Of a stretch of DNA of 46,133 nt, positions 6,316-46,133 are shown piece after piece. The notes under the pieces are model-generated. The model was given only the letters and a program-made list of their open reading frames with translations, was not told the origin of the DNA and did no database searches. Location of the stretch: the IMG/VR virus record IMGVR_UViG_3300035661_000105, positions 1 through 46,133 of that record; one strand, given 5' to 3'. The first letter of the stretch is position 1. Every line of letters begins with the position of its first letter. The stretch comes from a virus. A program made the position numbers and the translations under genes.

Positions 6316-6547
6316 TTTCTAACTCCGTTGAATAGTCCTCGTAGGTGAAATCGGTTACGTAAGCGTAACCCTTACACGTGCCCAAGTTGCCTACGTTCAC
6401 CAGGGCCGTGGTATCGAGTGAGTAGTCCGTGAACGAACCGCCCTCCCAGGATCGACGAAGCTCATCCCGCTTCGACTCGAGGATCTTCATCAGCTCCTGA
6501 GTCATCGGATGGTGCTTCCAATCTTTGAAATCCTCTTCAGTCAACAT
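6302..6547 (-). CDS. Small conserved phage protein
   Basis: An 81-residue acidic protein (MLTEEDFKDWKHHPMTQELMKIL) overlapping the portal gene by 11 bases and the GroES-like gene by 14. The N-terminal half is helical with a heptad-like KILESKRDELRRSW stretch. It resembles small proteins often found after podovirus portal genes whose role is unknown. The tight overlaps mean it is translated as part of the packaging/capsid operon. Confidence 0.65.
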   Translation of the reverse strand: MLTEEDFKDWKHHPMTQELMKILESKRDELRRSWEGGSFTDYSLDTTALVNVGNLGTCKGYAYVTDFTYEDYSTELENGKP

Positions 6548-11501: not shown

Positions 11502-11570
11502 ACACGTTAGACACGTAGCCTGCTTCCGAGTTCCCTGTTGCCGTGCATGGCGTGAGGCTCGTGTATTACC

Positions 11571-11618: not shown

Positions 11619-11936
11619 AAAATTACTTTCTGCATTGGGTGGCGGTTAGTTAATTTATTTTTTGCCCCCCGTCAAGTTTATGGGGCAGGGTGGGGGAGCT
11701 TGAAGGTGGGTGGGGGCGCGGCTTAGGGGGGGATGCTGATTGATAGCGCGCTGGATTGGTGCGGGGGGTGGCACTCTGTTGGTGCGTGGGAATGGGGGGG
11801 GGGGCTGGTTGTATGCACCGAATTGGGGCAGAAATAAATTGATGGATGACGCAAAATAGTGGGAACTGCTTGTGGGGGCGCGTGTCAAACGGGTACGAAG
11901 GGCAGATAGGCTGCCGTTCAATACCGGAGAATTACC
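11619..11936. other. Divergent control region with guanine runs
   Basis: About 320 bases between the two arms without a credible gene. After an AT-rich piece (TTTATTTTTT near 11654-11663) the plus strand carries clustered G-runs. Between 11682 and 11716 these are GGGG, GGG, GGGGG, GGG and GGGGG with short spacers, followed by a 7-G run at 11726-11732 and an 11-G run at 11794-11804. This can form a G-quadruplex. The early rightward promoter should lie in the last 130 bases, but I cannot place a clear consensus. The long minus-strand open frame here is a low-complexity artefact. Confidence 0.5.
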
Positions 11937-12366: not shown

Positions 12367-12451
12367 GTACGCGTACGTACGGCCGCCCTACACAATCGCG
12401 GGAACCAAACGTACGTACGCGTGTCATATATATACGTACGCGTACGTACGG
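12367..12451. repeat. CGTACG-rich direct and inverted repeats
   Basis: GTACGCGTACGTACGG occurs at 12367-12382 and again at 12436-12451, each followed about ten bases later by ACACAATCG and a GGGA or GGGAG. In addition a perfect 13-base inverted repeat pairs 12410-12422 with 12438-12450 around a 15-base AT-rich loop containing TCATATATATA. The region separates two early genes. It may be a protein-binding site array, a promoter-proximal operator or a melting site. Confidence 0.75.
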
Positions 12452-13085: not shown

Positions 13086-13149
13086 GAAAAAGGCGGACGG
13101 GCTAGGAAAGACGTCTGCTCGAATTACTTGGGAACTAACTAGCTCGCTA

Positions 13150-13166
13150 ACGTGTCATATACACGT
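13150..13166. promoter_or_regulatory. Small palindrome ACGTGT-N5-ACACGT
   Basis: A perfect six-base inverted repeat around CATAT. The GTGTCATATA half is shared with the loop edge of the CGTACG repeat region (12421-12430), suggesting that one factor may recognise both. It lies in the 280-base gap between early genes, beside tandem AGCTAG/CTAGCT elements at 13172-13190. Confidence 0.4.
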
Positions 13167-13210
13167 AACACCATAACACCATAGCTAGCTATCTAGCTAC
13201 ACTCTACGCA

Positions 13211-15132: not shown

Positions 15133-15233
15133 ATTGATTGCTTGGGAACCGGCGGGCGTTCCATGTGTCAAACCAATACGAAATACGGGAACGGTGGCCG
15201 ATTAACCCACCCAAGGCTCAGAGGCTCAATCTC

Positions 15234-21775: not shown

Positions 21776-21991
21776 ATGACTCAAACTCGATTACAATCAA
21801 TGATTGAAGTAGGCGTAGGCGTAGCAATCGGCTACTTCGTCGCCCTCGCAACTCAGCTGATAGCCTTCCCGCTCCTCAGCATTCCCGTGTCGCTCAGCAA
21901 TAATTTCCTTCTCGGCCTCATCTTCACAGTCGTCTCCGTGATCCGTGGCTACTTCGTTCGTAGACTCTTTAACTGGATGCACACAAAATGA
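21776..21991 (+). CDS. Small two-span membrane protein (DUF7220-like)
   Basis: A 71-residue protein with two hydrophobic spans (VGVAIGYFVALATQLIAFPLL and NNFLLGLIFTVVSVIRGYFV) and a basic C-terminus with RRLFNWMHTK. The SxxRGYxxRRxFN ending is typical of a small phage membrane family near replication genes. ATGA-coupled to the ParB-methyltransferase gene. Role unknown. Confidence 0.7.
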   Translation: MTQTRLQSMIEVGVGVAIGYFVALATQLIAFPLLSIPVSLSNNFLLGLIFTVVSVIRGYFVRRLFNWMHTK

Positions 21992-23322
21992 AACGCTTTA
22001 TCAACGCAGATTCTATCATCGTAGCCCCGGAGCGGCAGCGGAAGCACTTCGACGCTACGAAGCTTGCGGAACTCGGCGGCAGTATCGAGGCGAATGGACT
22101 GTTGCAAGCCATCGTTCTCCGCTACGTCGATGGCCAGTATATCCTTGTCGCAGGTGAACGCCGCCTTCGCGCAATGAAGGACCTGATTGCACTTGGCCAG
22201 ACCTTCAACTACGACGATGAGCCCGTCCCCGCCGGCCTTGTCCCTCACACCCTCCTCAGTGAGCTCGATCCCCTTGCGGCCGAGGAAGCAGAACTCGAGG
22301 AGAATCTTCAACGTGAAAACCTCACTTGGCAGGAAAAGGCCGCTGCAGTGGCGCGGCTTACTAATCTGCGTAAAGCCCAAGCACTGCAAGCCGGCCTACC
22401 GATGCCCTCCATCGCCGCCATCTCTGAAGAGGTTCGTGGCTCGAGTGAAGGTGTTAATCAGGAGACAACCCGTCGCGAGATCATTGTTGCGAAGCATCTC
22501 AACAACCCAGCAATCAAAGCTGCAAAGACTGTCGACGAAGCCTTTAAGATACTCCGTAAAGAAGAGACGGCTGCAAAGAATGCTGAACTGGGCATTCAGG
22601 TTGGCCGCACGTTCTCGGCAAAACTTCATACACTCTTCAACGAAGACTCGACTAGCTGGCTATCCGGATACAGGGACCAAAGCTACGACGTAATCCTGAC
22701 AGATCCGCCCTACGGCATGGGTGCAGATGAGTTCGGTGATTCGGGCGGCAGAGCGGAAGGTGCCCACGCATACAAGGACGATTACGAAACCTTTATGCGC
22801 TGTGCAACGGCCCTTGCTTTCGAGGGCTTTCGTATCGCCAAACAGCAAGCGCACATGTATTGCTTCTGCGACCCGGATCGCTTCAGCCAGCTCAAGGCAC
22901 TCATGGTTGAGGCTGGCTGGACAGTATTCCGCACCCCGCTGATCTGGTACAAGCGTAATGGTTCCCGCGCTCCGTGGCCAGAACAAGGTCCTCAGAGAAA
23001 GTACGAATTCATCCTGTACGCGGTGAAGGGGAAGAGGCCTGTACTCAAGATGGCAGGGGATGTGCTGGACTTTCCTCCCGATACTAACCTCGGGCATGGT
23101 GCACAGAAGCCCGTCGCGCTATATCAGGAATTGCTGTCTCGGTCCTGCCTACCAGGCAACTCCGTCATTGACCCCTTCTGTGGCACAGGCCCTATCTTCA
23201 CGGCGGCGAACGAACTACGCTGCATAGCTACGGGAGTAGAGGTTGATGCCGGCAGCTACGCTATTGCCATGAGGCGGCTGGACGGGCTGGTAAATCCGAA
23301 GGACTTGCTGGAGGGACTGTGA
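21988..23322 (+). CDS. ParB-like domain fused to DNA methyltransferase
   Basis: A 444-residue fusion. Residues about 1-110 are a ParB/Srx-type domain (the VAGERRLRAMKDL motif near residue 56), and 110-200 form a helical ParB middle region (AELEENLQRENLTWQEKA). The C-terminal half is an amino-methyltransferase with the catalytic TDPPYG near residue 240 and the SAM-binding DPFCGTGPI near residue 393. That motif order is of the beta type (N6-adenine or N4-cytosine). It likely modifies phage DNA to evade host restriction; the ParB part may give sequence or structure targeting. Confidence 0.88.
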   Translation: MKRFINADSIIVAPERQRKHFDATKLAELGGSIEANGLLQAIVLRYVDGQYILVAGERRLRAMKDLIALGQTFNYDDEPVPAGLVPHTLLSELDPLAAEEAELEENLQRENLTWQEKAAAVARLTNLRKAQALQAGLPMPSIAAISEEVRGSSEGVNQETTRREIIVAKHLNNPAIKAAKTVDEAFKILRKEETAAKNAELGIQVGRTFSAKLHTLFNEDSTSWLSGYRDQSYDVILTDPPYGMGADEFGDSGGRAEGAHAYKDDYETFMRCATALAFEGFRIAKQQAHMYCFCDPDRFSQLKALMVEAGWTVFRTPLIWYKRNGSRAPWPEQGPQRKYEFILYAVKGKRPVLKMAGDVLDFPPDTNLGHGAQKPVALYQELLSRSCLPGNSVIDPFCGTGPIFTAANELRCIATGVEVDAGSYAIAMRRLDGLVNPKDLLEGL

Positions 23323-24292: not shown

Positions 24293-24612
24293 ATCTTGTA
24301 AACGAACTGCGCTGTCTTGCAGAAGATTTGTATTCTGCTAACTCAGCTAGTCCAATCGTGAGCGCCCTGAGTAGGGCTGCTGACAGGATTGCGGAGCTTG
24401 AGGATCAGAAGCCGTTCTATGGCCAGAAGCCTACCTACGCACCGTCCATTAGTGATGCCCATTTGAGGGCGCTTGCGGCAAAGTGTGGGCTGATGCCAGG
24501 GTATAAAACCGCTGAATTAGTCGCTGCTATTATAGGGTACGCAAGAGTAGTACTTAACGACCCTGCGGTACAAGAGGCTTTCTACGCCCGCTCAGTACAA
24601 GGAGGTTCTTAA
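24289..24612 (+). CDS. Small protein, function unknown
   Basis: A 107-residue protein, MNLVNELRCLAEDLYSAN, with an N-terminal helical pair (a segment like SALSRAADRIAELE seen in many phage proteins) and a helical tail. TAATG-coupled to the DNA polymerase gene, with AAGGAGG for the polymerase inside its end. Confidence 0.65.
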   Translation: MNLVNELRCLAEDLYSANSASPIVSALSRAADRIAELEDQKPFYGQKPTYAPSISDAHLRALAAKCGLMPGYKTAELVAAIIGYARVVLNDPAVQEAFYARSVQGGS

Positions 24613-27077
24613 TGTCACGCCCCGGCGAAGGCCCAATCCCCTCGCGTATAATGATCGTCGGTGAGTCATGGTCCCACGACGACATTCGCTTCAACATGCC
24701 ATTCTCCGGCAGCGTGGGGCAGGAACTCAATCGTATGCTCCATGAAGCCGGCATCATGCGGAGTGAGTGTTACACTACCTGCGTCTGCGATTACCCCATC
24801 CCCTTCGATGCCATCGCTAAGGCTAAGAAAGACATCACCCTTAATCATCATTTCTATAAAGGCATGTATGTCACTGAAGCACTTCGTGCAGGTTGCCGTG
24901 CACTCGCTGTTGAAATTGATCTTGTCCAGCCTAACCTCATTATCGCGATGGGCTCTGTTGCCCTGTGGGCGCTCACAGATCTGTGGTCGGTGCCGAAGTG
25001 GAGAGGTTCGCTCCTGTACTCCACGCACCCCCGGAAGCCGAAAGTAATACCAACCTACCACCCCTCCGCGATCTACCGCCAATGGGACCTTCGCGCGATT
25101 GCAGTAAATGACCTCAAGCGCGCCAAGCGACATATGACTACGGCGACCTACGATAACAAACCAGAGTGGCAGTTCCAAGTCCGGCCCTCTTTCGATTCCG
25201 CTATAGCTTGCCTCAACATGCTTCTTGCACGTGTGCAAGTTACTGATGAACTCTGGCTCGACTTCGATATCGAAACACGCTACGAGCATATTGACTGCAT
25301 CGGAATCAGCTGGTCACGCACCGAAGCGATCTGTATTCCTTTCGTGGCGCAGGGAAGGAAGGAGGGCTACTGGAACTTGGACGAGGAAACCGTAATCATC
25401 TTTAAGTTGTACAAGCTCCTCACGCATAAGAACTGCCGTGTCCGCTGGCAGAACGGTCTCTACGACGCGCAGTACGTTTACCGTCACTGGCACTTCCTCC
25501 CCCACGGCGGCCAGGATACAATGATATCCCAACACTCCCTTTTCTGCGCCATGCCGAAGGGGCTGGACTTTATCGCATCCATGTACTGCGACTGGTACGT
25601 GTACTGGAAGGACGAGGGAAAGATCGCATCGAACATACCAGAGGAACAGCGTTGGACGTACAACCTTCAAGACTGTATCTACACTCGGGAGGCCGGTGAG
25701 GTCCTTCAACAGTCCGTCAAGGTCATGGGGCTGGCCGAGGTCGACTCCTACCAGCAGCGCATGTTCAATCCGGTCCTCCGTGCCATGCGCCTCGGTGTGC
25801 GTATCCGTCCGGAGGTCAAAGCTACAATGGCTATGGATATCCAGGAAGAGCTCTCCCACAGAGAAGCCTTCCTATACAACGTAGTTGGCCACGCGATCAA
25901 TCCGAAGTCGCCGAAGCAAATGCAAGCCTTCTTCTACGAAGACATGGCACAGCCGAAGATACTCAAGCGCGTAGTCCGCAACGGGCATACTACCATGTCA
26001 GCCTCTTGCGACGACGAGAGCATGGCAAAGATCTCTGCCCGTGAACCCCTTCTTAAACCAATCTGCAACGCGATCCTGGACATTCGCACCTTGTACAAGT
26101 TCCTTAAAGACTTCGTCATGATGCCACTGGATACGGATGGGCGTATGCGTTGCTCTTTTAACATCGCAGGAGATGCGGGTGGAAAATCTGCACCGTATTC
26201 GTACAGACTTAGTTCGAGTAAGAATCCTTTTGGCTCAGGTGGAAACCTGCAAACGATACCGTCTGAAAAGTCCAAGTCATCCGGCAAAGCTGCAGCTCGA
26301 GGTAGTATGGATTTTACTCTGCCTAACATACGCAGCATGTACGGCCCTGATCAAGGATTCACTTTCTTCGACATGGACTTGGATCGGGCGGACCTTCAGG
26401 TAGTCGTCTGGGAATCTGGTGACCCGATGCTCAAAGCCGCTCTTCGCATGGGCGCGGACATTCACTTACTCAACACCTACGGTATTGATAACAAGGAACC
26501 ACCGCCGCTAGAGGAACTCGTCGAGACCCACCCGCGTTACCTTGACCACAAGTCTCCCCGTAAACACAAACGCGAATTCGCAAAGGTATTCTGTCATGCT
26601 ACTAACTACCTCGGTAAGGCTAAAACGGTTGCGGCGCATACAGGACGCGGAGTCCACGAGATTGATCAAGCGCAGAAGCGTTGGTTCGCTGCGCACCCAG
26701 GCATTCTCGAATGGCACCAGCGCGTTACTAACCAAGTCCGCGAGTTCCGCTACGTCGAGAACAAGTTCGGCTATCGTTGGTACGTCTTCGATAGGATTGA
26801 TGAGAATCTTCTCCCCGCCGCAGTGGCATGGATTCCGCAATCTACAGTGGGGATCGTTATCAACCGCGCGTGGCTGGCATTTTACGAGAACATCCCGGAG
26901 GTACAAGTCCTCCTTCAAGTCCACGACTCACTTGCGGGGCAGTTTCCTACCCACCGCCGCGCGACCTTGCTTCCGCTGATGGAACGGTACTCCAAGATAG
27001 TCATCCCGTACGATGAACCACTGATCATACCTACTGGAATTAAAACGAGTACCATCTCCTGGGGCGATTGTGTCTAA
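24612..27077 (+). CDS. DNA polymerase, family A, with N-terminal uracil-DNA glycosylase-like domain
   Basis: An 821-residue replicative polymerase. Residues about 1-175 look like a family 4 UDG: VGESWS near 15, MPFSGSVGQELNRML near 35 and TYHPSAIYR near 150; the iron-sulphur cysteines of classical family 4 are not evident. The 3'-5' exonuclease follows: DFDIET near 217, NGLYDAQYV near 280 and YNLQDCIYT near 349. The polymerase domain has motif A DMDLDRADLQ near 586, motif B KVFCHATNYLGKAKT near 657 and motif C QVHDSL near 769. A similar UDG-polymerase arrangement is reported for SPO1-like phages. Confidence 0.9.
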   Translation: MSRPGEGPIPSRIMIVGESWSHDDIRFNMPFSGSVGQELNRMLHEAGIMRSECYTTCVCDYPIPFDAIAKAKKDITLNHHFYKGMYVTEALRAGCRALAVEIDLVQPNLIIAMGSVALWALTDLWSVPKWRGSLLYSTHPRKPKVIPTYHPSAIYRQWDLRAIAVNDLKRAKRHMTTATYDNKPEWQFQVRPSFDSAIACLNMLLARVQVTDELWLDFDIETRYEHIDCIGISWSRTEAICIPFVAQGRKEGYWNLDEETVIIFKLYKLLTHKNCRVRWQNGLYDAQYVYRHWHFLPHGGQDTMISQHSLFCAMPKGLDFIASMYCDWYVYWKDEGKIASNIPEEQRWTYNLQDCIYTREAGEVLQQSVKVMGLAEVDSYQQRMFNPVLRAMRLGVRIRPEVKATMAMDIQEELSHREAFLYNVVGHAINPKSPKQMQAFFYEDMAQPKILKRVVRNGHTTMSASCDDESMAKISAREPLLKPICNAILDIRTLYKFLKDFVMMPLDTDGRMRCSFNIAGDAGGKSAPYSYRLSSSKNPFGSGGNLQTIPSEKSKSSGKAAARGSMDFTLPNIRSMYGPDQGFTFFDMDLDRADLQVVVWESGDPMLKAALRMGADIHLLNTYGIDNKEPPPLEELVETHPRYLDHKSPRKHKREFAKVFCHATNYLGKAKTVAAHTGRGVHEIDQAQKRWFAAHPGILEWHQRVTNQVREFRYVENKFGYRWYVFDRIDENLLPAAVAWIPQSTVGIVINRAWLAFYENIPEVQVLLQVHDSLAGQFPTHRRATLLPLMERYSKIVIPYDEPLIIPTGIKTSTISWGDCV

Positions 27078-34632: not shown

Positions 34633-34953
34633 TTAGTCCGGTGAGGTTGTGGAGAAATCGAAGAAGGGAGAAACAAATCCCGGACGGACGCAGCCGGGCA
34701 AGGCTTGCCGGGGCACTGCGCTAGAATCCTGTGGGGTACAGAATGCCGTAAAGACTGCCTGCGGCACGGGCTGACTCCACGGAGGGCTCGGATTCTCTTT
34801 CACAGCTCGCACGTAGTCCTGGGGGTGCCGAGGCTCCCAATGCTTCTCACATACATAATATCCTTGCCAGTGTTTTTTCAGCTCACTCGCCTTGAACTTC
34901 ATTCCGCATTCAAAGCATACCGCGTTGTTATCGCCCGGCTTGAAGTATGTCAT
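34633..34953 (-). CDS. Conserved zinc-finger-like podovirus protein
   Basis: A 106-residue protein with CFECGMKFKASELKKHW, then CEKHWEPRHPQDYVR: a four-ligand CxxC ... C-x2-H site near residues 13-38, followed by a proline-rich tail. The N-terminal MTYFKPGD start and the EPRHPQD motif recur in many podovirus genomes near tail genes. TAATG-coupled to the giant gene. Role unknown. Confidence 0.7.
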   Translation of the reverse strand: MTYFKPGDNNAVCFECGMKFKASELKKHWQGYYVCEKHWEPRHPQDYVRAVKENPSPPWSQPVPQAVFTAFCTPQDSSAVPRQALPGCVRPGFVSPFFDFSTTSPD

Positions 34954-37900
34954 TATTGATTCCCCTTCTTAGCTTTCTTTGCCGCCGCGAGAGCCTTATA
35001 CTCAGGCGATTCGTGCAGCCGTTTCCCTGCAGCCCTCGCCTCCGCAGCTTGGGTATACGAACGCCCGTAGGTAGGTGACCCAAGCATCCCGCCAATGCCT
35101 TGGCTCTCCCCAGAGTCCTGGAACGAGATGGGAGTAAACGCCCTGCCCGCATGCGCCACCCGATCGCCTAGCGTCGGATTCTCCCGCTTCGCATCCTGCA
35201 TCTCTTGCACTGTCATCCCTTCCTTCAACGGTTTGTTCCCCATCTTCGGAGCCTTGTGGGTAGACCAGTACTCCACGCCCTCCATCTGACTCACAGACTC
35301 TTTCACAAGGAAGGATGACTTGTTCATCAACTGTTGCCGAGGTGCCAGTAACCAGTGCATAGGTTCCCAGAAGTGCTTCGATACCTGGGTCGTCGTGCCA
35401 TCCGCATTCTGCAGCCGTGTCGGGTCCCACTCTCCCGAGGAGTTATTATTCTCCCAGAAGTGGTGGCCGGTGTTCTGGACGTTCAGCCAATCAATCGCCG
35501 CCGTGTAGACGAAGGCACTGCGCATGAGGTACTGCCTGTGGAGATCTGCCAGTTCTGTTGGATGCCATAACCCTCTCACCCCCGAACCCTCCCCGCCTTT
35601 AATCCCCCCTACCTTCGCGCCGACCAATCCAGCCAGCCCTCCTATCACCGCCCCCATACCACCGTAGTCGTCCGGCGCCAGTTGACTCCCGACAATCGCA
35701 CCAGTCGCTGCAACCTTCCCTTGGTTACTAAACGCCTTGATCATCCCGCGACTTGTAGACAAGGTCCAGTCCATCGCGAACAAACTCATGCGGCCGAGGA
35801 ACTGCCCCGTCGGACCCAGTGCAGCACTAGCTACCGACCTGCTCCAACGACTCTGCAGCTCCTGGACCAGCCTCACATAGTTCTGTCCCCCCACCATATC
35901 GTCCGCGAAAGAAATCGCGCTAGTATAAACCTCCTTCTCGGACTTAAGGGCTGCACGACCTGCTTCAACATCCCGTGCATTATTGCGGGATAATTCACGT
36001 ACCTTATCCATCATAATCATAATCTTAGTCGCGGGCATCAAGCGTCCGAACATAAAACTATCCGTGGCGTGCATCAGGTCCTGGTACTTCCCAACTGTAT
36101 TATTACCAAGGCCCGGGACTACCTTATCCAGATACGCGGACACCCCTCCAATCGCTTGATAGTAATTCCCTTGCAGGTCAGCGATGGTAGGCTCGGCCCG
36201 TTCGAAGCCTGGACGGAATCCATACTTCGCCGCCGTGTCAATCATGTCGCCAGCTTCGCCCGACCTCAGCTGCTTCAGCATCGTGTTCTCGCCAAGAATC
36301 TGATGCGGGATGTACTTCCCGATCGCACCCCCTGCGGCCATACCCGCCACCATCCCTAGCATCGAATGGTCATCCGACATTTGACTGCCCGCAATCCCGC
36401 CCCCGACAATCGCAAGTCCTCGAGGCCCGAGCGTCTGCGCAAGGTTCTGTGCAGCCATCGGAATCCCCTTGCGCAGCGGCATCGCACCAATCGCTGCATG
36501 GGTGATAGCTGCCGCGTGGAACAGAGACATACTAACCGTCGCCCGCTTCTGCGTAGTGTTAATCACGTCCAGCATCCGAAGGATAGCGCCAGGATTAAAC
36601 GAGTCGAACAGCATCCGCAAATCCCCTACCGTATCAGGGTGGACACGGAACCCTCTCAGCTGCGGGTGGTCGATGAACATATAGTCCCTCGGGGCCTTCC
36701 CTTCCTTCATGATAACCGTCTGGCCTTCTTCAAATCCCGTAGGATGTTCGCGCAGGGCCTTCACCAGATTCCGGTTCTCAATAGCGTCCGTCACACTGCG
36801 GTTATACTCTTCCATAACCTTAGCAATGTCCATCGAGATAACCTTGTAGCCATTCGCCTCCGCAAGTGCGCGAGTAGGGAATGCGCGGGACTTTCCAAAC
36901 GGGCTGCTCGTACTGAAGTCGCCCACGCTGCGCTCGCGTAACCAGCCAAGCGCTTCCTTCCCGTAGATACGCGTAGCATAGTTATCAATCACTTCCCGAA
37001 TCACGCCGGCCTTCTTAGCCGCTGCCCCTCGCTCTTCAAAGAATGCCTTCACGCCTTCCGCCGTCTTGAGTTCAGCAGCCGTCAACACCTGTGGCTCCTC
37101 TCCCTCTAAGTATTTGTAGATCGCCTCGCGACGAGCCAGCACGGGATGCTCTTCGTACATACGTTCAGCGAAGGAATATGCCGCTCGTTCACTCGCCCAC
37201 TTGTTATAGGTACTCGCGAGAATCTGTTTACCAACGTCAAGAAACGCAGCCTCGTTCTGCATACGATTGATGAACTCTCCAATCGCCTTTGGCTTCGCAC
37301 CGGCGACCAGCACGCCGCCCATGAAACCCAGCAGCGCACCTTCCACTGGATGCTTCGAATCTAGGTACGCGCCGAGCGCTGTCGCACTTACAACCCCTGC
37401 AAGCTTAACCATCTGCTCAGGAGTAGCTGCCCCACGCTGCCCCGTCGCGTCTGCGTAGTCGTGCAGGTAGCGTTGCAACTGGTCCTTCGCGCGGCTGATA
37501 CGCGATCGTACAGTTCCAATTGGCACACCTGTCCGGTCCGCGATCTCTTCGTACGACAGGCCATCGGCTTCCCGCATGAGGAAGGCTTCCCGGAAGCTTG
37601 GCTCCACCTTCTCCAGTGCGGTAGTCATGCGTTCACCGAGTAACTTGTTCTGCGCGATACTCGCAGGCGTCACATCATGCCCAAGAGTCTCTTCCATCTC
37701 CGGGGTCATCTCAGACGTTTCGGGCCGCACCTTCATATTGCGGATAGCGTTCTTCGCTTCGTTCTGGGCAGTGCGATACAGGTACGTGCTGAGCTTTGAG
37801 TTCTCTTCGAAGTTGTTTATCCGTGCGAATACTTTTTCGAAGGAGCGCTGGACAATATCGGGGATACTGATTCCCGTACGTTCGAAGGAGTGTAGTGACC

Positions 37901-40892
37901 GTTCCAGTTGCGGAGCGTTACGAGTGTACAGCTCTGTGAATGCTTGCTGCGCCTTCGGGCCGCCCTCCCTTGCCGTCTTGAGCAGGTCCGCTTCCAGCAT
38001 CGCCTTCATGCCGCCCTTGCCCCCCGCTACCCCTAGCCCGATGCCTGCCAGGGTCAGCATGGATTTGTTATCGGGGCTGAGAAGATACGCACCCAGGCCA
38101 ATCCCTCCTGCGATAGCCGCGAGAAGTTTCGGGTCTGCGGAACCGAGCATCTTGATCCGCATGTCCGCTCCCTTGCCGATCACCACAGAGTCTACCGGCA
38201 CCTGCCACCATGTATGCCCCTGTGCATCAGCGAACTCGACGCCGCCGAGGGACTTGTAGTAACGAGTGATCTCGCCGGCGTAACGGTTGTAGATGGACTG
38301 GTGGCCAGGGTCTTTGAAGGGCTGCGGAGCTTTCCGGTCTGCCTCAAGTTTGTCAAACTCCGCTAAGGCTTCTACATTATCCATGCGTATAGCTATTTCC
38401 CGCATCTGTTGCAGTTCTGCGTCGCCAAAAATTTTACGCAACTCTTCCCGTGGCCACCCCTCCACCTTCGCAACCGTGTCAGCACTCGCGAAGCGCACAT
38501 ACCCTTCGCCCTTCTCCGCGGACTTATTCAGCTGCTCACGGATCAATCTCCGGGGCCAGTTCTTTAGGATCGGGCTGAGCTGTCCCGCTGCTGCGCCCGC
38601 GTCCATTGCGGCACGATTCTCCGCTCGTTTCATCTGCAGGGCTTCTTCAAAGGCACTGATGCCGTCTCGCGCAGCTCGGAGAATCTGAGGATCAGTCTCC
38701 AGCGCCTTCACCGCATCCAGCACGCCGCCCTCCGTTGCTAGGTTACCGTAGGAGTTGAGGCGGTCCTTCGCAGCGTTCGGTAGGCGCTCAAGGATAGCTT
38801 CTTCGATCTTAAAGATAGCGTCAGGGTTGGCCTTGAGCAACTCAGCCTTGTGCTTAATAACATTATCCAGCTCGCCCCCGAAACGGCCCTTGCCCTCTAG
38901 CCAAGTATCCAGTGGCTTACCGAGAATCTTTAACTGTTCGGCGATCGCTGCCTGCCCGTGCACCAGTGACACGAACTGTTCTGGAGACAGCTCTTTCACA
39001 TGCTGCGCAAGGTCAGATTGCACCTCCACCACGTGAGTGACGCCGTCCTCTTTAAAGGAACGAGTCCATCCGAAGAGGCGAGAGTCCCCAAAGTGATTCG
39101 CGTCAGACATTTCCATATGCTCGGGAAGTCTGAACAGGGTGGAGGTAACATCCTGCATAGCGCTGGCATCACGCCCCCCGACTATATTACCGCCCTCCCG
39201 CCGCGCCGGGACCTCTCGACCGATCTTCTCCAGCCCGTAGCTTGCATACTTACCAGACTCTTCCGTGGTCATCCGCCAGCCACTTGTCTCCGCTACCCAA
39301 CCGGAGACAAGATCGTGCGCGGAGATTCTATCTCCATCCACTGTAGCCAGCACGCGTTCAAAGACCTTCTTCGCTTCACCTGAGGTCTTCCCGAAGCGGT
39401 CCGTGATCTCCTGCTTGGCGAAGTCAATCTTGTTACCTGACAGATGCTCGAACACAGGGTCGGTATAGGGGCGAGATTCCTTCAGCAGGACTTCCAACGC
39501 CCTGCCCTTACCTGTTAGCGTCGTCGCACCTATCAGGCCAAGCGTCCCGAGCTTCTCCATGTCCTCCGGATTCAACGCCGCCCAGATCGCCGCCGAGGTA
39601 AGGCCCAGTGCCGCCAGCAGCCTCGGGTCAACGTTGCCATCCTGAAATCCGCTGCCGATAGGCTTCCCGTCCAGGCCGACAATCCTCCCGCCGGCCTTCA
39701 TTGTGTTCTGTACAGCAACCTTCTCCACCGCGTCAATGTCGAAGTCCTGCCCTCTACGCATCTTGTCCAGTGCGGAGTCAAGCGGCGAACCCGCCTTCAG
39801 TTCCTCCAACGTCTGCCCATCTTGAAGGCGGGTCTTCGGTACCGTAGGTTCCGCAGGTTCTGGTAGCCCGACTTGCGGTTCCACTCTCGGCACCGTGACC
39901 TTCCCGTTCAGCTCCCCCGTCGGCACCCAGGTGTCAGTTCCATTTACCTTCGCGGGAGTATACATCTTACCGTCGGGGCCCTTGACCGGCTCCCCCGTAA
40001 CTTCAATTGGATACTCTACCCCGCCGCTCAGCCACGTAGCAGGGCCATTAGGGACAATGGTAGCCTCCATGCGAGCAGCCTTGTCTACAGGAGTCTCCTC
40101 CTTCACAGCTGCCTTCGCGTCCTTGATCCGTTGCTTGGACGCCGCGATAGCTTCTTCCGGCGTAAGACCTCCGGCCTCCAGGGGAGCCACCGGCTGCCTG
40201 TAAGGCTCACGTGCCTCTGTCGCGGGCTGATTTGGGCCGGCGTCGTCCCAGACAACTCCACCCTTGTCCGGAATATCAGTCGCCTTCGCCCTATCCGCTT
40301 CCAGTCCAGCCTTCGTAGTGATCGCACCTTCTGGCAGCTTCGCCTTCGGGGTAGTCAGTCCCTTCACCCCTGCGTCAACTGCGTGTGCGCCGCCCTTCAG
40401 CATGACCATGTTAAATAGAAGTTTCGCGTCGGCTTCACTTACTAATCCACTCGAAGCCTTCTCTGCAATGTTTGCAGCATCTTGAATCATGCCAGACAAT
40501 TTTGACTGGTCCATGGGATCGCCGCCCCCGAGTATTTTACTAGCCGTCTGCAGCGGAGTCTTCATCCATTCCGGAATAAGTTCCTCCCCGGCTTCCCCTG
40601 CCAGCTCTACCGTGCGGCGATTTTCCCCTGCTGCAGTTGCAGCGAGACGCCCGCCAAGGTTAGCTCCGAGGGCCAACGCCTGCCCAGGTATCCCCGCGAA
40701 CATATCGCCCAGCATAAGCGTTCCCTTGCCGAGCGTCTTGGCGTAGGTCTTTTGTTCCTCGGAGTCAGTTACGAAGTCCTTCACCTGTTGTAGGGTCGCG
40801 CGCGGTTTCGCCGGCGGCTCCTCCCCCTCCCATACTACCGTAGGATCACTCGCCGCCGTGTCTTCCCATTGTATCTCAGCTGCCATGATCAT
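34953..40892 (-). CDS. Giant internal virion (ejection) protein with embedded ECF sigma factor
   Basis: A 1979-residue protein, ATGA-coupled to the previous gene. Order: Pro/Ala-rich N-terminus; hydrophobic hairpin 1 (about 421-466); an alpha/beta part with VVEVQSDLAQHV near 619 and HTWWQVPVDS near 892; hairpin 2 (918-962). Next comes an ECF sigma unit: sigma2 at about 982-1050 (PDIVQRSFEKVFARI, LSTYLYRTAQNEAKNAIRN) and sigma4 at about 1085-1147 (EPSFREAFLMREADG, YEEIADRTGVPIGTVRSRIS). Hairpins 3-5 lie near 1157-1202, 1487-1531 and 1722-1764, and the C-terminus is basic. Size and place suggest ejection with the DNA, comparable to P22 gp16/20 or N4 vRNAP. The sigma domain is seen directly; injection and use are inferred. 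Confidence 0.88.
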   Translation of the reverse strand: MIMAAEIQWEDTAASDPTVVWEGEEPPAKPRATLQQVKDFVTDSEEQKTYAKTLGKGTLMLGDMFAGIPGQALALGANLGGRLAATAAGENRRTVELAGEAGEELIPEWMKTPLQTASKILGGGDPMDQSKLSGMIQDAANIAEKASSGLVSEADAKLLFNMVMLKGGAHAVDAGVKGLTTPKAKLPEGAITTKAGLEADRAKATDIPDKGGVVWDDAGPNQPATEAREPYRQPVAPLEAGGLTPEEAIAASKQRIKDAKAAVKEETPVDKAARMEATIVPNGPATWLSGGVEYPIEVTGEPVKGPDGKMYTPAKVNGTDTWVPTGELNGKVTVPRVEPQVGLPEPAEPTVPKTRLQDGQTLEELKAGSPLDSALDKMRRGQDFDIDAVEKVAVQNTMKAGGRIVGLDGKPIGSGFQDGNVDPRLLAALGLTSAAIWAALNPEDMEKLGTLGLIGATTLTGKGRALEVLLKESRPYTDPVFEHLSGNKIDFAKQEITDRFGKTSGEAKKVFERVLATVDGDRISAHDLVSGWVAETSGWRMTTEESGKYASYGLEKIGREVPARREGGNIVGGRDASAMQDVTSTLFRLPEHMEMSDANHFGDSRLFGWTRSFKEDGVTHVVEVQSDLAQHVKELSPEQFVSLVHGQAAIAEQLKILGKPLDTWLEGKGRFGGELDNVIKHKAELLKANPDAIFKIEEAILERLPNAAKDRLNSYGNLATEGGVLDAVKALETDPQILRAARDGISAFEEALQMKRAENRAAMDAGAAAGQLSPILKNWPRRLIREQLNKSAEKGEGYVRFASADTVAKVEGWPREELRKIFGDAELQQMREIAIRMDNVEALAEFDKLEADRKAPQPFKDPGHQSIYNRYAGEITRYYKSLGGVEFADAQGHTWWQVPVDSVVIGKGADMRIKMLGSADPKLLAAIAGGIGLGAYLLSPDNKSMLTLAGIGLGVAGGKGGMKAMLEADLLKTAREGGPKAQQAFTELYTRNAPQLERSLHSFERTGISIPDIVQRSFEKVFARINNFEENSKLSTYLYRTAQNEAKNAIRNMKVRPETSEMTPEMEETLGHDVTPASIAQNKLLGERMTTALEKVEPSFREAFLMREADGLSYEEIADRTGVPIGTVRSRISRAKDQLQRYLHDYADATGQRGAATPEQMVKLAGVVSATALGAYLDSKHPVEGALLGFMGGVLVAGAKPKAIGEFINRMQNEAAFLDVGKQILASTYNKWASERAAYSFAERMYEEHPVLARREAIYKYLEGEEPQVLTAAELKTAEGVKAFFEERGAAAKKAGVIREVIDNYATRIYGKEALGWLRERSVGDFSTSSPFGKSRAFPTRALAEANGYKVISMDIAKVMEEYNRSVTDAIENRNLVKALREHPTGFEEGQTVIMKEGKAPRDYMFIDHPQLRGFRVHPDTVGDLRMLFDSFNPGAILRMLDVINTTQKRATVSMSLFHAAAITHAAIGAMPLRKGIPMAAQNLAQTLGPRGLAIVGGGIAGSQMSDDHSMLGMVAGMAAGGAIGKYIPHQILGENTMLKQLRSGEAGDMIDTAAKYGFRPGFERAEPTIADLQGNYYQAIGGVSAYLDKVVPGLGNNTVGKYQDLMHATDSFMFGRLMPATKIMIMMDKVRELSRNNARDVEAGRAALKSEKEVYTSAISFADDMVGGQNYVRLVQELQSRWSRSVASAALGPTGQFLGRMSLFAMDWTLSTSRGMIKAFSNQGKVAATGAIVGSQLAPDDYGGMGAVIGGLAGLVGAKVGGIKGGEGSGVRGLWHPTELADLHRQYLMRSAFVYTAAIDWLNVQNTGHHFWENNNSSGEWDPTRLQNADGTTTQVSKHFWEPMHWLLAPRQQLMNKSSFLVKESVSQMEGVEYWSTHKAPKMGNKPLKEGMTVQEMQDAKRENPTLGDRVAHAGRAFTPISFQDSGESQGIGGMLGSPTYGRSYTQAAEARAAGKRLHESPEYKALAAAKKAKKGNQ

Positions 40893-41944
40893 TCATCCTC
40901 GTCAGGGGCGGGAGTCACTTGCCGCTTAGGAGGAGCAGCACCTTCGATCTTCCGCAGAGTCACCGTGCCGTCCTTCGCCTTCGCGACGACCAAGACACGT
41001 TGGCCATTATAGTTATAAGTCTTTCCTACAAACCGCAGAGCAGGTTCAACAGGGAAGCCTGGAAACTCCTTCCGGTCCTTCGCGGCGAGGGTCGCCTCCT
41101 GTGCCACGGTCAACTGTCCCGTAGCCTTCTTCGTACCCGGTGCGTCCGGTCCGCCGTACTTCTTTTCATTATCTGTTTGCGCCTTGAGCAGAGCTTCCCG
41201 TGCCTTGGCTACACCGACCGCAGCAAAGTCCTTCGCCGCACCTGCAGCCTGCCGACGCTCCCTCGCCTCGTCCAGACTGGCCGAAGCTTCCAGTTCCAAT
41301 TTATCCTTCACGGACATGCTCTGTGACAAGGCCGCCTTCAGCAAAGGTACGGCTTGCGCGTAGTCCTCCGGCAAGCGGGACAGATCCGACTTCTCGCCAG
41401 CAGGCATATTCGCAATCGCCTGCCCTCGAATCATCGCGTAGTTAGCTGCCCCACCTTCCAACGCCGCTTGCGCAAAGGCCCCCCGCTGCGCGTTCCGTTC
41501 TGCCTGCGCCTTGAGTTCCTGCACCTTCGCTTGCGCGTCAGAGCTAGCCGCAGCCGCCTCATGCTGCTTGATCGTCGCGGCCTTCTCCCAGAGCGGGGCC
41601 AGCTGCACCGGGTCCATGCCGGAGTCCGCTCCGAACTGCGCCATCTTCAGCAGTGAATCCGCAGCGGACAGTTGAGCACTTGGTGCCTTATCCGTCGTGA
41701 GTATCCCGCCTTGCTCCGCGACCTTCTGCGCCGCTGCATAATCAATCCCAAGCTGCTGCATCCGCTGCGCCTGTTGCAAGGCCATGTCCTGCGTTTCAAC
41801 CTGGCCCTCCAGCGCTCTCTGCTGAACAGGCTGCATGGCGATCTCCCCCATCGCCTTCGCGTCGGATAAGAAGCCCTGCCGCTCCTGACGCATGTCAGCT
41901 TCAGCGGCCCCTTGCCCTATAGGTGCGCCATACATACCGCTCAT
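40889..41944 (-). CDS. Internal virion protein, helical
   Basis: A 351-residue Ala- and Gln-rich protein, ATGA-coupled on both sides. Nearly all predicted helix (LEGQVETQDMALQQAQRMQQ and similar), with a basic/proline C-terminal tail (APPKRQVTPAPDEDE). This composition is typical of podovirus ejection proteins such as P22 gp20-like or T7 gp15-like parts, which form the ejection channel with the giant protein encoded next. Confidence 0.75.
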   Translation of the reverse strand: MSGMYGAPIGQGAAEADMRQERQGFLSDAKAMGEIAMQPVQQRALEGQVETQDMALQQAQRMQQLGIDYAAAQKVAEQGGILTTDKAPSAQLSAADSLLKMAQFGADSGMDPVQLAPLWEKAATIKQHEAAAASSDAQAKVQELKAQAERNAQRGAFAQAALEGGAANYAMIRGQAIANMPAGEKSDLSRLPEDYAQAVPLLKAALSQSMSVKDKLELEASASLDEARERRQAAGAAKDFAAVGVAKAREALLKAQTDNEKKYGGPDAPGTKKATGQLTVAQEATLAAKDRKEFPGFPVEPALRFVGKTYNYNGQRVLVVAKAKDGTVTLRKIEGAAPPKRQVTPAPDEDE

Positions 41945-42921
41945 TGCATGTACCCCATCTTCTGTAGGAACATCATCACGTTAGCAGGAAGTTGGTTCTG
42001 ATTCGCTCCCATGCGAGTGACCCCGTAGCCGAGGGAGGCAAGGCCCGCGCTCTCCAGGTTGTTTGCGTACTCCTGCCCTTGGATTCCGATCTGTGCCCCG
42101 GCAGCTCCCGTACCACTTGCGCCGGCGAGTCCCGCCATCTGCTGCAGATGTTGGTCATACCAACCGGTGGAAGCGTTCGCGCCTGCAACGGACATGGCGC
42201 CGGAGTCGGCTCCATAGACTGCATTGGCCCTCTGAGCACCTTGGATACGGAGCGCGTAGGCAGGGTCCCGTGCAGCGGCCTGACTCGGGTCTTTCAGAAA
42301 CGCTTGCAGTTGTTGATCCGACAAGGCACGGCCGCCGGAGGCGCCCCAGCTATCAGCCCTCGCCGCATTGGCCGCTGCGAGCTTCCGCATCTGGTCTGCC
42401 TGGTCCATGCCCTTGAGGCCGGAGTAGATTGACATACCATTCTGTGCTAACGACAAGGCAGACTTAGCGCTGCCCCAATCGAATCCGGCTCCGGCTTCTT
42501 GCCCAATCGTCTGCCCCAGGCCGGATGCGAACTGCCCGGAAGTAGCACCGCCCGCGTCAGCCGCTGTATCAAACAGGCCTGTAAGGAAACCGTCATTGCC
42601 GCCAGTAACCCCATTCGCACCCATCGTGAACAGGTTGGAGTTCTGCTCCGCCAATGCATCACTAACCCCAAGGCCGGAATCAACTGCAGTTTTAAAGCCT
42701 GCCATATCAACCATGCCGCCGGTGCCTGCATCAACCAGACCTCCCATAGCTGCATCGCCTAGAAAGCCTCCAGCTGCCCAATCAGTAGCTGCCGTAGCTG
42801 CCGCATCTGTAAAGGCCGCTCCGCCCATACCTCCCAGTAGCGCACCCCCTGCAGTATCCGCCGCAGCACCCGCCGCAGCCGAGTCAAGAACCGCCGCCCC
42901 AAAAGCTTCTTCAATGCCCAT
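41941..42921 (-). CDS. Internal virion/DNA-transfer protein, Gly/Ala-rich
   Basis: A 326-residue protein; the ATG at 42921 overlaps the radical SAM stop (TAATG), and the longer upstream frame is rejected. The first 150 residues are exceptionally Gly/Ala-rich (AAVLDSAAAGAAADTAGG), suggesting membrane-inserting helices. The second half is helical with DQADQMRKLAAANAARAD and SDQQLQAFLKDPSQAAA motifs seen in P22 gp7-like DNA-transfer proteins. Located downstream of the radical SAM gene, so it is a candidate substrate. Confidence 0.75.
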   Translation of the reverse strand: MGIEEAFGAAVLDSAAAGAAADTAGGALLGGMGGAAFTDAAATAATDWAAGGFLGDAAMGGLVDAGTGGMVDMAGFKTAVDSGLGVSDALAEQNSNLFTMGANGVTGGNDGFLTGLFDTAADAGGATSGQFASGLGQTIGQEAGAGFDWGSAKSALSLAQNGMSIYSGLKGMDQADQMRKLAAANAARADSWGASGGRALSDQQLQAFLKDPSQAAARDPAYALRIQGAQRANAVYGADSGAMSVAGANASTGWYDQHLQQMAGLAGASGTGAAGAQIGIQGQEYANNLESAGLASLGYGVTRMGANQNQLPANVMMFLQKMGYMQ

Positions 42922-44201
42922 TATAAGTCCCTCCGGAAGATTAGTGTTCCATCGGCCTGCCCGATCTCGACCAGCCCGTGACGCTCTTGCCACTTCCTCA
43001 GTTTCATATCACCCCCCGGAATACAGGAGAACACTTCCGCGTATCCTTGGCGCCTCAGTTCCTCCAAGAACGCCGGCCAGATTTCTTTGCACTGCAACCG
43101 TTCATTCAACGTCCAGCGATCAATGAGGGAGTGCAGCCAGATCTTTCCTGGAATACTTTCCCGTTCAACCGCCCAGACCTTTCCAAAGTCCCGCTCCACC
43201 TGATGTACGATGCGATCCAGAGACTTTGGTAACAGGACCTTCGCCTCTTCTGCAATCTGCTCCGGCGTCATGGCTTGCACGACCTGGTGCAGGGGGCTGT
43301 GCATAGGTCCTAGTACCGTACCGAATACCGGACCAGTTTTACTATACGCCGTTACACTGTCATTATCAGGCCAGCAGACAATGTGTAGGTTCCTGCCACA
43401 GTAGATTAGCTCAAGATAGTAAAGGTTGCTCCCCCCGTCCGCCATCTTCTGCGCGCCGTAGGCCAACGCAGCCTTCCCCATGTCTGACATGAAGAGTCCA
43501 GACGCCCGTGTACAAGCTCCCATAGCAGCACCTGCACGAATCACGAACTGATCCGGCTGCATACCCTTGCTCACCAGAAACCGAATCACATCCATGCAGT
43601 GTAGCATCTCTGCAATCGTTGACACGGTGAAGGATAACTGGCACACCCGCAGCCCGCTATCCTTAATCGCCTTCAGCACAGTGACCTTGTGTTCCCAAGG
43701 CTTCACTGCCTTGGTAAAGTGCATGGAGTAGTTAACGTACTTCAGTCCCGCCGCAACAAGGGATTCTGCATAGCCCTCCTCCTCAAACCGCTTCCCGTTC
43801 GTAGTCATCCCTACACGCTTCCCATGTAGGGTGAGGAAGCGAACGATCTTAAACAGGTCATCTCGCATGGTAGGCTCAGCACCCATCAAACAGATATCGT
43901 CAAACCCGCTCTTCATACATTCGACAATGACAGACTCCGCGCTGCGATCAATCGAGTCATTGTCGACTTTGTAGTAGCAGTACTTACACACCATGTTACA
44001 GCGGGCAGTCACGTCTACAATATACGTGGAGCTGAAACGCTCGATCCAAGGGTTTATATGCTGGTCCGTAATGCTCGCGATGAAGCTGGCGTCAGGGTCA
44101 ACCACCTTCCCGTTCACGTAGGCGACGTTGTCCAACACCTCCACAACCCTGTCACGGATCCTGGTAGGAACCTTTGGCTGAAACTTCACTACCGCATTCA
44201 T
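42921..44201 (-). CDS. Radical SAM enzyme in virion operon, C-terminal extension
   Basis: A 426-residue protein with the iron-sulphur motif CNMVCKYC (Cys68, 72, 75), a YIVDVTARC lead-in, the SAM-binding GAEPT at 107-111 and the TTNG strand near 134. These define a radical SAM core of the SPASM/AdoMet type to about residue 240. Residues about 345-426 (IWLHSLIDRW to FRRDL) look like a separate acyltransferase-like (GNAT-type) module, although no clear acetyl-CoA motif is visible. TAATG-coupled on both sides among tail and ejection genes. Substrate unknown; a neighbouring virion protein or a nucleotide are the main options. Confidence 0.85.
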   Translation of the reverse strand: MNAVVKFQPKVPTRIRDRVVEVLDNVAYVNGKVVDPDASFIASITDQHINPWIERFSSTYIVDVTARCNMVCKYCYYKVDNDSIDRSAESVIVECMKSGFDDICLMGAEPTMRDDLFKIVRFLTLHGKRVGMTTNGKRFEEEGYAESLVAAGLKYVNYSMHFTKAVKPWEHKVTVLKAIKDSGLRVCQLSFTVSTIAEMLHCMDVIRFLVSKGMQPDQFVIRAGAAMGACTRASGLFMSDMGKAALAYGAQKMADGGSNLYYLELIYCGRNLHIVCWPDNDSVTAYSKTGPVFGTVLGPMHSPLHQVVQAMTPEQIAEEAKVLLPKSLDRIVHQVERDFGKVWAVERESIPGKIWLHSLIDRWTLNERLQCKEIWPAFLEELRRQGYAEVFSCIPGGDMKLRKWQERHGLVEIGQADGTLIFRRDL

Positions 44202-44629
44202 TAGACTATACTCACAATCAAACCATCTTTGATAGTTACGGTCTTGCCGGACAAGCTGGCCGTCGTGAGCGTCCCCGTGTAACCTGCACTGCCATCGCTC
44301 GACTTGAAGCCGCCAGCGGTTGATGCTTGGATCGTCGTGCCCTTGATTGTGTTCGGAGCCGTATCCCCCATTGCCTTTGGGCTCGCCCAGGTGCTACCGA
44401 CGAATGAATTGTACTCTGTATCTGTCAGGTGGTAGAACTTGCTCGTTGCACCGCCTTGCAAACCATTAAGCCCGTTATGCTGAATCGTCGTACCACCACT
44501 ACCGATAGAGTTCAGAATGGCAGTCAAGTCAGTGAACCACTTTAACCAGACAGGATTGAATCTCCCCTCCTTCGTCTCAGGGTTCACAAGGACTACCTCA
44601 GCCCAAGTCGGTGCAGGTTGAAAGGCCAT
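44201..44629 (-). CDS. Tail-region structural protein
   Basis: A 142-residue protein starting MAFQPAPTWAEVVLVNPETK. An N-terminal helical segment reads PVWLKWFTDLTAILNSIG and a C-terminal beta-rich region carries VTIKDGLIVSIV, as in short tail-fibre or tail-needle-associated proteins of podoviruses. Between the gp10-like and radical SAM genes, TAATG-coupled to both. Confidence 0.65.
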   Translation of the reverse strand: MAFQPAPTWAEVVLVNPETKEGRFNPVWLKWFTDLTAILNSIGSGGTTIQHNGLNGLQGGATSKFYHLTDTEYNSFVGSTWASPKAMGDTAPNTIKGTTIQASTAGGFKSSDGSAGYTGTLTTASLSGKTVTIKDGLIVSIV

Positions 44630-46133
44630 TATAGTGTCCCTATGTCGACTTGAAGCTCAAGCGCCTGGATACGCAGGGGCGCGTTACACTTGTGGCGGAG
44701 ATGGTAGGCCCTCCGTATGAACGTTCCTTCATTCTCCAGAATCGGCTTCTGACTATTCATATTGACCTCGCGGAAGTTAGTCCACTTGGTCTCTTCGTAA
44801 TCCTGGTCGTTGTGACGGACCTGCAGGACGCTACCCTCCGCTCGGTCGCCTACAAACTCCATCAAGCTCAACGTCTTCCGTCTCCGTGTCCCTCCGTCAA
44901 AGTTCGGGGTGTAGATATCTACCGTGATCAGATCCCCGTCATCTGTGTAGTAACTGCCGTCGAACTGGTACAGCTTACCGTTCGTTTCATGTTGGAGGAT
45001 TAGACCTAACGAGTCACTGTACGTCGCGCCGACGATGGGCCAGTAATTCCCATTCACGTCCGTCCACTGCGCCCAGGTCTTATCCGCCATGTCATAGACG
45101 AGGGTAATGTTCTCGGCAATCAGTGTGATCCCGTAGAACCGATGCCCCTCGAACTTTAAGGCGAACGAACGGACCTGGGAGAAGTCTGCCGCCCCGAGTA
45201 ACCGTTCAATAGGCTTGGTCGAAACGATCTGGGCCTTGAGACCTTCCACCTGCAACACCTGCGGAGCCGCCGACCTATTCGTCGCAATCCAGAGTAGCAC
45301 GCCGTCCATGTCCTGCACAGAGTCTGCGTGCTTACAACCGTAGCTGAGCTTCGCGCCCTGGACAGGAGACAGCGGACTGGCCGTCGTATTCGCGGCGTCG
45401 TAGAATACTTCCGTCGACCACTGCCCGAGTGCTAGTACGTACACCAGCTGCTTCGCCAATGCCACGCCGCCATCGGACTCGATCTGCGCAGTGATCCTAT
45501 TCAAAATATCTGTCCAGCCCGTTGGGTCATTCAGACTCGTGCATCCCCTAATACTCGCATTCGAGTCCATGACATACGTCGTGCTGTCAAGATACACAAT
45601 ACCTTTGACAGTCGAAGAGGGAAAGTTGTTTGCGGTTGTAGCGGTACCGTTACCCGTGCCAACACCTGTGGCGATGAATGTAGTTCCAATGTTATTATCA
45701 GCAGCTCCGATCAAGGTAAAGTTAGTCGTACCGGGGACTAGAATGGTGTAGCTAGTACTCACAACGAAGGAGCCCGCGGTCACTGTGGTAAGGCTGCTGA
45801 TTTGAACTAGTCCGCTTACCTTGTCAAAGTTATACGTCGCGATGCCGTTACCCAACTGCAGCTTATGCGTCGCACCCAGGCAGGATGTAAACCGATACTG
45901 TCCTCCAGTAGTGTCCAGGATTCCTGCTTGTGCAACCCCGTTCAAGTACAGTGTCGCCCCGAAGATCGAGTATACGTCGCCTTCCCAGTTGAACACTCCG
46001 TAGCCCTTGCCCGTCTGTGTAGCCCCCGTCTGCTTTAGTCCGGGACGCTTGTACAACTGGTACTCGCCTTCCTTCTCCCCCTTCTCAACATACCCGTTGA
46101 GGAGCTTCGCATCCTTGCTCGTCGTGCCATCAC
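44629..46133 (-). CDS. P22 gp10-like packaged-DNA stabilisation/tail protein, main part (N-terminus at 205-1)
   Basis: Open from the right contig edge to 44629; joined to bases 205-1 the protein is 522 residues. The segment YKRPGLKQTGATQTGKGYGVF early, then WSTEVFYDAANTTASPLSPV and the WIATNRSAAPQVLQVEG beta-propeller-like repeats, match gp10-like stabilisation proteins (about 470-520 residues) that attach under the gp4 ring. The TTG at 46056 is internal and is not the start. Split only by the contig break. Confidence 0.85.
   Translation of the reverse strand, partial: DGTTSKDAKLLNGYVEKGEKEGEYQLYKRPGLKQTGATQTGKGYGVFNWEGDVYSIFGATLYLNGVAQAGILDTTGGQYRFTSCLGATHKLQLGNGIATYNFDKVSGLVQISSLTTVTAGSFVVSTSYTILVPGTTNFTLIGAADNNIGTTFIATGVGTGNGTATTANNFPSSTVKGIVYLDSTTYVMDSNASIRGCTSLNDPTGWTDILNRITAQIESDGGVALAKQLVYVLALGQWSTEVFYDAANTTASPLSPVQGAKLSYGCKHADSVQDMDGVLLWIATNRSAAPQVLQVEGLKAQIVSTKPIERLLGAADFSQVRSFALKFEGHRFYGITLIAENITLVYDMADKTWAQWTDVNGNYWPIVGATYSDSLGLILQHETNGKLYQFDGSYYTDDGDLITVDIYTPNFDGGTRRRKTLSLMEFVGDRAEGSVLQVRHNDQDYEETKWTNFREVNMNSQKPILENEGTFIRRAYHLRHKCNAPLRIQALELQVDIGTL
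45993..46133. repeat. Terminal direct repeat (contig overlap), right copy
   Basis: Right copy of the 141-base overlap with bases 1-141; one mismatch (T at 46119 against C at 127). It lies inside the gp10-like gene and shows the contig is circularly closed. Confidence 0.9.

Follow-up and report, generated by a model that had tools for sequence, protein, structure and literature searches.

Why a phage should carry a complete ECF sigma factor in the middle of a putative ejection protein, and whether this factor could enter the cell together with the genome, are the questions raised by an unbroken open reading frame of 1979 codons on the minus strand (34953..40892) of a 46,133-base virus record, hereafter the window. 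Bases 1-126 of the window recur identically at 45993-46118, and this 126-base end repeat, be it circular permutation or assembly overlap, indicates a nearly complete, circularly mapped genome. Along the minus strand lie the terminase (8631-10169), the portal (6537-8630; weak match to Pfam SU10_portal), GroES-like and scaffold-like genes and the major capsid gene (3079-3999), the terminase, GroES and capsid names being taken from relatives with the same gene order; then come, across the junction, the tail nozzle or head closure protein (44629..46131, minus strand; PHROG 578, E 1.4e-39), a radical SAM protein (42921-44201, minus strand), and two putative internal virion proteins assigned by synteny, namely a gp14-like protein of 350 aa (41941..42993, minus strand) and a gp15-like protein of 351 aa (40889..41944, minus strand). 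Homologues of the former precede the giant gene in several sigma-bearing relatives, homologues of the latter stand directly before it in most of them, nozzle homologues precede it in most as well, and the order nozzle, gp14-like, gp15-like, giant is conserved. Tail fibre genes follow the giant in minus-strand order and replication genes occupy the plus strand. Such an arrangement is that of T7-type podoviruses and places the giant at the gene 16 position, from which ejection of the protein into the cell along with the DNA is likely by analogy. At the sequence level, no T7-type internal virion protein family was matched in the window giant, the PHROG matches of which are to sigma-type families only, and phrog_342 is weakly matched in L133, a relative without the sigma domain. 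Besides, Alcaligenes phage QDWS535 has a GNAT gene where the window has the radical SAM gene, and two fusions were observed on the plus strand of the window, a uracil-DNA glycosylase domain with a family A DNA polymerase (24612-27077) and a ParB_N domain with an N6/N4 DNA methylase (21988-23322).

Residues ~970-1150 of the giant protein (37443..37985, minus strand) are a complete ECF sigma factor with both region-2 and region-4 motifs. Pfam, PHROG, TIGR02937, PDB sequence comparison and Foldseek all agree on this point with an earlier note on this DNA, which had claimed such a factor within the 1979 residues of an intact frame. The profile search proposed there retrieved Sigma70_r2 (PF04542) at residues 988-1052 (37737..37931, minus strand; 37.5 bits vs. 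a cut-off of 24, E 2.1e-9) and Sigma70_r4_2 (PF08281) at residues 1088-1139 (37476..37631, minus strand; 55.2 bits vs. 25.7, E 5.4e-15), both above the curated Pfam cut-offs, and PHROG 1740, 'RNA polymerase sigma factor', matches the giant protein with E 8.9e-25. Sigma strings occur at residues 1011 (PDIVQRSFEKVFARI), 1034 (LSTYLYRTAQNEAKNAIRN) and 1114 (YEEIADRTGVPIGTVRSRIS), the linker between regions 2 and 4 spans ~35 aa and region 3 is absent. Structure prediction, suggested in the same place, gave an AlphaFold2 model that fits ECF sigma folds: ECF sigma structures make up almost all of the top Foldseek matches (probability 1.00), the isolated region 2 of sigma-E (5or5) aligns at 1.9 A with a target-normalised TM of 0.84, and confidence is mostly 75-88 pLDDT in sigma2 and sigma4 and low in the flanks. 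Regarding its affiliation, the closest PDB sequence is E. coli sigma-E (1or7, E 8.8e-20); with 89.9 bits against TIGR02937 sigma70-ECF (cut-off 42.9) and 84.5 bits against the RpoE equivalog TIGR02939 (below its cut-off of 236.15), the domain is by that rule an ECF sigma factor and not an RpoE orthologue. It departs from the definition of ECF sigma factors as separate small proteins, since it sits within 1979 aa, as do its counterparts within 17 further giant ORFs.

By PF08281 search, this embedded domain is the sole sigma factor above the cut-off in every record searched; no second sigma factor was found in the window genome, nor any second stand-alone sigma gene in these phages. No anti-sigma factor was seen beside it. 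Neither scanning the large ORFs of the window against Pfam and PHROG nor scanning the giant against Pfam returned an RNA polymerase, in line with the statement of the earlier note that the phage has no such gene. A genome-wide PF00940 search found no match anywhere and adds little, because its controls gave no match either. The zincin processing motif HExxH, frequent though not universal in polyvalent proteins, is absent from the window protein, in which no processing peptidase was seen; of note, the giant of a distant sigma-bearing relative, L182 (2205 aa), has an HExxH motif (HEVNH) at residue 1076, possibly a processing zincin.

The sigma domain is a modular insert. In L130, which lacks it, the alignable flanking parts are 2 residues apart vs. 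174 in the window, and in the close relative G013 the sigma core is missing at the same borders. Glycine-rich hydrophobic hairpins usually adjoin the domain and occur on both sides in the window, before it at residues ~917-958 (38019..38144, minus strand; hydropathy peak 923-941) and after it at residues ~1165-1207 (37272..37400, minus strand; hydropathy peak 1186-1204). A hydrophobic segment lies just after the sigma domain in 12 of the 13 members examined and just before it in seven; hydrophobicity is weak in these segments (Kyte-Doolittle 1.3-1.9) and model confidence low. Other domains are found in related giants, namely SLT (L128), glucosaminidase (L129) and PcfJ, and the window giant, combining sigma with a conserved mixed alpha/beta region, is multidomain in the sense used for polyvalent proteins. 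Residues 490-912 (38157-39425, minus strand) are conserved in relatives with and without sigma and contain the motifs VEVQSDLAQH and YNRYAGEITRYYKSLGG; this stretch matches no Pfam family, is modelled by AlphaFold2 at 68 pLDDT and has no fold match at E <0.001, with weak GNAT-like matches. In many giants a short N-terminal motif is present in duplicate, perhaps as a packaging tag: IQWED/VVWEG in the window (~40820-40880, minus strand), SWDDAV/TWDDAV in L166, SWEQMTG/SWEQMGG in L122 and QFMG/DFMG in L130.

The survey of other giant phage proteins, which had also been suggested, yielded 17 further embedded sigma domains, i.e. 18 in total, after further IMG/VR scans, in giants of 1343-2465 aa. 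Relatives were reached through a portal alignment, which supplied 80 related IMG/VR contigs, 8-mer scans from the window protein alone having given no useful ones and a profile of nine sigma domains being too varied for a collection scan. In tblastn of the giant over 50 related records, the sigma region lay within ORFs of 1343-2067 aa in eight, and others matched without it; in the annotated phage collection, no close relative of the whole giant protein was found. All nine embedded members tested pass the TIGR02937 cut-off and the sigma2 and sigma4 motifs are retained in the 18 members. An assembly artefact is ruled out by the unbroken frame and by the 17 further members on other contigs, many of them from other metagenomes. 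When bacterial genomes are searched, the embedded sigma finds its best matches mostly in stand-alone proteins of ~190-260 aa. A tree of 47 sigma domains places 16 of the embedded ones, including that of the window, in a single group (bootstrap 96, SH-aLRT 89) and pairs that of L128 with that of L182 separately, which implies one or two embedding events. Purifying selection on the sigma part is strong, with dN/dS of 0.01-0.07 in close pairs (dS up to ~1), values mostly at or below those of the rest (downstream part) of the same protein; together with the profile scores and the fold, this rules out a chance sigma-like stretch. Besides, in one group the sigma4 part, which reads the -35 element, was exchanged en bloc, DNA identity between L121 and L140/L141 being 93% in sigma2 vs. 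55% in sigma4.

The window has five predicted ECF-type promoters of the form GGGAAC-N16/17-TGTC[AT], of which four face early genes and the fifth faces the terminase operon. They were first spotted by eye between the early and late operons, then scored with a matrix trained on eight other genomes, the window excluded, by which they rank among the top six positions. The best of them (GGAAC-N17-GTCTAA, 11507..11534, minus strand; 21.9 bits), directed toward the terminase and structural operon, can be read as GGGAAC-N15-GTGTCTAA at 11535, where the ORF preceding the terminase, a putative small terminase, begins. On the plus strand are GGAAC-N17-GTCAAA upstream of ORF 11937-12362 (11862..11889, 18.8 bits; GGGAAC at 11861), GGAAC-N17-GTCATA (12401..12428, 13.6 bits; GGGAAC at 12400), GGAAC-N18-GTCATA ahead of the early operon that begins at 13365 (13131..13159, 18.0 bits; GGGAAC at 13130) and GGAAC-N17-GTCAAA in the gap before ORF 15531-16196 (15145..15172, 12.0 bits; GGGAAC at 15144). 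Exact copies of GGGAAC-N16/17-TGTCA number four, all on the plus strand, vs. a mean of 0.04 and a maximum of 1 in shuffled windows. A search for sigma70-type promoters showed no enrichment in 11.5-31 kb (9 found vs. 11.4 expected), and early promoters for host sigma70 are thus not above chance in that region. Strong palindromes overlap or follow two of the ECF-type promoters, at 12410-12450 (ACGTACGTACGCG...) and 13150-13195 (TAGCTAGC...). A weak sixth site, GGGAACC...GTCCAAT at 30200 (plus strand, 13.1 bits), falls within a minus-strand ORF and is probably due to chance, and a dyad, ATTAT-N14-CGTG, has five copies in intergenic regions of the window, one more than the best shuffled dyad.

In sigma-bearing relatives, the divergent early/late region contains GGAACTT-N15-GTCTAA, which is the textbook sigma-E consensus; it occurs also just after the giant gene in G001 and G006, and the -10 element of the window differs from it (GTGTCA vs. 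GTCTAA). Counting GGAAC-Nk-GTC[AT]A in eight sigma-bearing genomes (330 kb) gave 36 occurrences at k=17 vs. 0-3 at any other k from 6 to 31; in 18 sigma-less genomes (729 kb) there were four at k=17, no more than background. Site counts at spacings 15-18 differ between sigma-bearing and sigma-less genomes with a Mann-Whitney p of 1.9e-5. An unsupervised dyad search ranked GGAAC-N17-GTCT top in G006 and, in G009, tied with other registers of the two-box motif; in the other genomes tried it was not singled out. The closest relative, G051, shares the layout of the window: early genes lie downstream of four sites and the terminase downstream of one. At a matrix score of at least 13, main-clade sigma-bearing genomes longer than 40 kb have 5-9 sites, and sigma-less genomes have 0-1 except G013 and QDWS535. 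G013, the giant of which lacks sigma, has four matrix sites, two of them strong, and QDWS535, also without sigma, has three, of which a strong intergenic one at 48814 stands before the terminase region; three sites were also found in G014, a fragment record in which the giant is not seen. An inverted copy of the -35 element between the boxes (GGAACTT-N7-AAGTnCC) was counted in the promoters of G001, G004, G005, G006, G009, G051 and G053, where 17 of 67 sites have at least 5/7 matches at offsets 13-15 (shuffled mean 1.9, maximum 6); it is possibly an operator or a second sigma4 contact, and none is present in the sites of the window.

The promoter finding is strong; its link to the embedded sigma is a statistical association, good but not proven. 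G012, nested in the sigma-bearing clade of the portal tree, has neither gp14/gp15-like genes nor sigma and retains one site, which is intragenic, a pattern that fits joint loss of sigma and promoters. No such promoter sites are present in G018, where SLT is combined with an embedded sigma belonging to the other clade, and a de novo motif search there gave nothing clear. As the sigma-bearing phages belong mostly to one clade, the portal tree allows at most three independent sigma/promoter pairs and the association is not significant by that test. A motif general to these phages is ruled out for most sigma-less relatives, G013 and QDWS535 excepted, and the sites of these two suggest that host sigma-E may also read such promoters. 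The proposal of the earlier note that the factor redirects host polymerase to phage promoters thus stands in part: ECF-type promoters do accompany the embedded sigma, but G013 and QDWS535 have such promoters without it and G018 has a sigma without the motif.

A genuine, conserved and selected ECF sigma factor, inserted as a module at the gp16 position and accompanied by specific promoters, is what the computation establishes; embedded sigma and matching early and late promoters in most complete genomes suggest that the virus carries its own promoter-recognition factor. On balance, the giant probably serves as a sigma-E-like factor that is delivered by the virion and directs host RNA polymerase to promoters of the phage. 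We infer the following course of infection: the gp16-like ejection protein, bearing its ECF module, would be packaged inside the head and ejected before or together with the DNA; the middle of the polypeptide would reach the cytoplasm, where the sigma domain, tethered or cleaved in its working form, would bind host core RNA polymerase into a holoenzyme and direct transcription in the first minutes from GGGAAC-N16/17-TGTC[AT] in the window phage and from GGAACTT-N15-GTCTAA in relatives. Most of these predicted promoters precede early genes and one precedes the terminase and structural operon, which sigma domain made late could feed before being repackaged.

That the promoters are instead read by host sigma-E, perhaps freed by envelope stress at ejection, with the embedded sigma redundant or acting late only (e.g. 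raising late transcription), is rather unlikely, even though the motif is nearly the host sigma-E consensus and the strong sites of G013 and that of QDWS535 occur without an embedded sigma; the wealth of sites in long main-clade sigma-bearing genomes relative to most sigma-less ones, the single intragenic site left in G012, and the strong purifying selection on the sigma part all argue against it. Less probable still is that the domain is a tether by which the ejectosome keeps hold of host RNA polymerase (or of phage promoter DNA), transcription pulling the genome in as in T7 with no sigma released. The location of the module in mid-polypeptide with no obvious protease and the hydrophobic segments beside it would suit such a role, as would the projection of T7 gp16-C into the cytoplasm and the pulling in of the T7 genome by RNA polymerase (PMC8954989), but the hydrophobicity of these segments is slight and confidence in their model low, the promoter before the late operon needs sigma away from the entry point, and a tether is a variant of virion delivery rather than a full alternative to it. 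Finally, the phage may have acquired a host sigma gene and retained it for DNA binding or as a structural part of the virion, with no role in transcription. The modular giant family does gain and lose domains; this reading is nevertheless very improbable given motifs retained in 18 members, the low dN/dS, the matching promoters, and the exchange of sigma4 en bloc between close relatives, which would be expected if recognition of the -35 element is important.

Within the preferred reading of virion delivery, a bolder version may be considered tentatively, in which the sigma factor ejected by this phage lineage is an integral part of its machinery for DNA translocation: held by the ejectosome at the inner face of the inner membrane, sigma would load host polymerase on promoters as they emerge, making recognition, takeover and transcription-driven entry one step, with sigma and promoters gained and lost together. 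A phage lacking a polymerase of its own is generally assumed to start from strong host sigma70 promoters, any sigma factor being made later. A virion-carried sigma factor, if true, would add a third mode of initiating infection, intermediate between the polymerase of N4 and the polymerase modifier of T4. Its predictions are testable on five named promoters, a separately expressible domain and natural relatives with and without the module, and the cognate ECF motif could, if the reading is true, reveal the early promoters of many metagenomic podoviruses.

Among known systems, the suggestion of the earlier note that a virion-borne sigma takeover had perhaps not been described agrees with the literature searched, which lay largely outside subscription journals and in which no injected, packaged or virion sigma factor was found. 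E. coli sigma-E (RpoE) is the closest characterised sequence, is among the closest folds and shares the promoter type (GGAACTT / GTCTAA), but it is a separate protein, whereas the window sigma is embedded and below the RpoE equivalog cut-off. Phage sigmas of ECF type that redirect host polymerase are known in phiEco32 (gp36), SU10 (gp32) and phage 7-11 (PMC4281155, PMC4331800), and the portal family of SU10 is distantly related to that of the window, as its weak SU10_portal match indicates. The phiEco32-type sigma, however, has a stand-alone gene, is made during infection from a sigma70 promoter and serves middle and late promoters with the motif tAATGTATAtA (PMC4281155), whereas the window sigma is fused into a putative virion protein and its predicted promoters are sigma-E-like (GGAAC/GTC) and mostly early. 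T7 gp16, once ejected, passes through the inner membrane and extends its C-terminal part into the cytoplasm, after which RNA polymerase pulls in the genome (PMC8954989). With T7 gp16 and podovirus ejection proteins the giant has in common gene order, size class and membrane-type segments (PMC8954989), and the N-terminal peptidoglycan hydrolase of gp16 is paralleled in the relatives L128 (SLT) and L129 (glucosaminidase); that paper, in which the word sigma is absent, attributes no sigma domain to gp16, and the window giant is without T7-type sequence match. Polyvalent proteins (Iyer et al. 2017, PMC5512222) are likewise very large, multidomain and thought to be injected, some of them jump-starting transcription; in their survey, which covers 131 domains and the main text of which lacks the word sigma, takeover of transcription proceeds via N4-type polymerases and protein-modifying enzymes (PMC5512222). 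Among injected virion proteins, T4 Alt alters host RNA polymerase by ADP-ribosylation and is not a sigma factor (PMC5512222). In N4, it is a virion RNA polymerase that is ejected and starts early transcription (PMC4496689, PMC5512222), and gp50 is, like the giant, a very large virion protein with a transcription module in mid-polypeptide (PMC5512222, PMC4496689); N4 gp50 delivers a whole single-subunit polymerase, whereas the window giant, devoid of polymerase domain, would bring the promoter-recognition subunit only.
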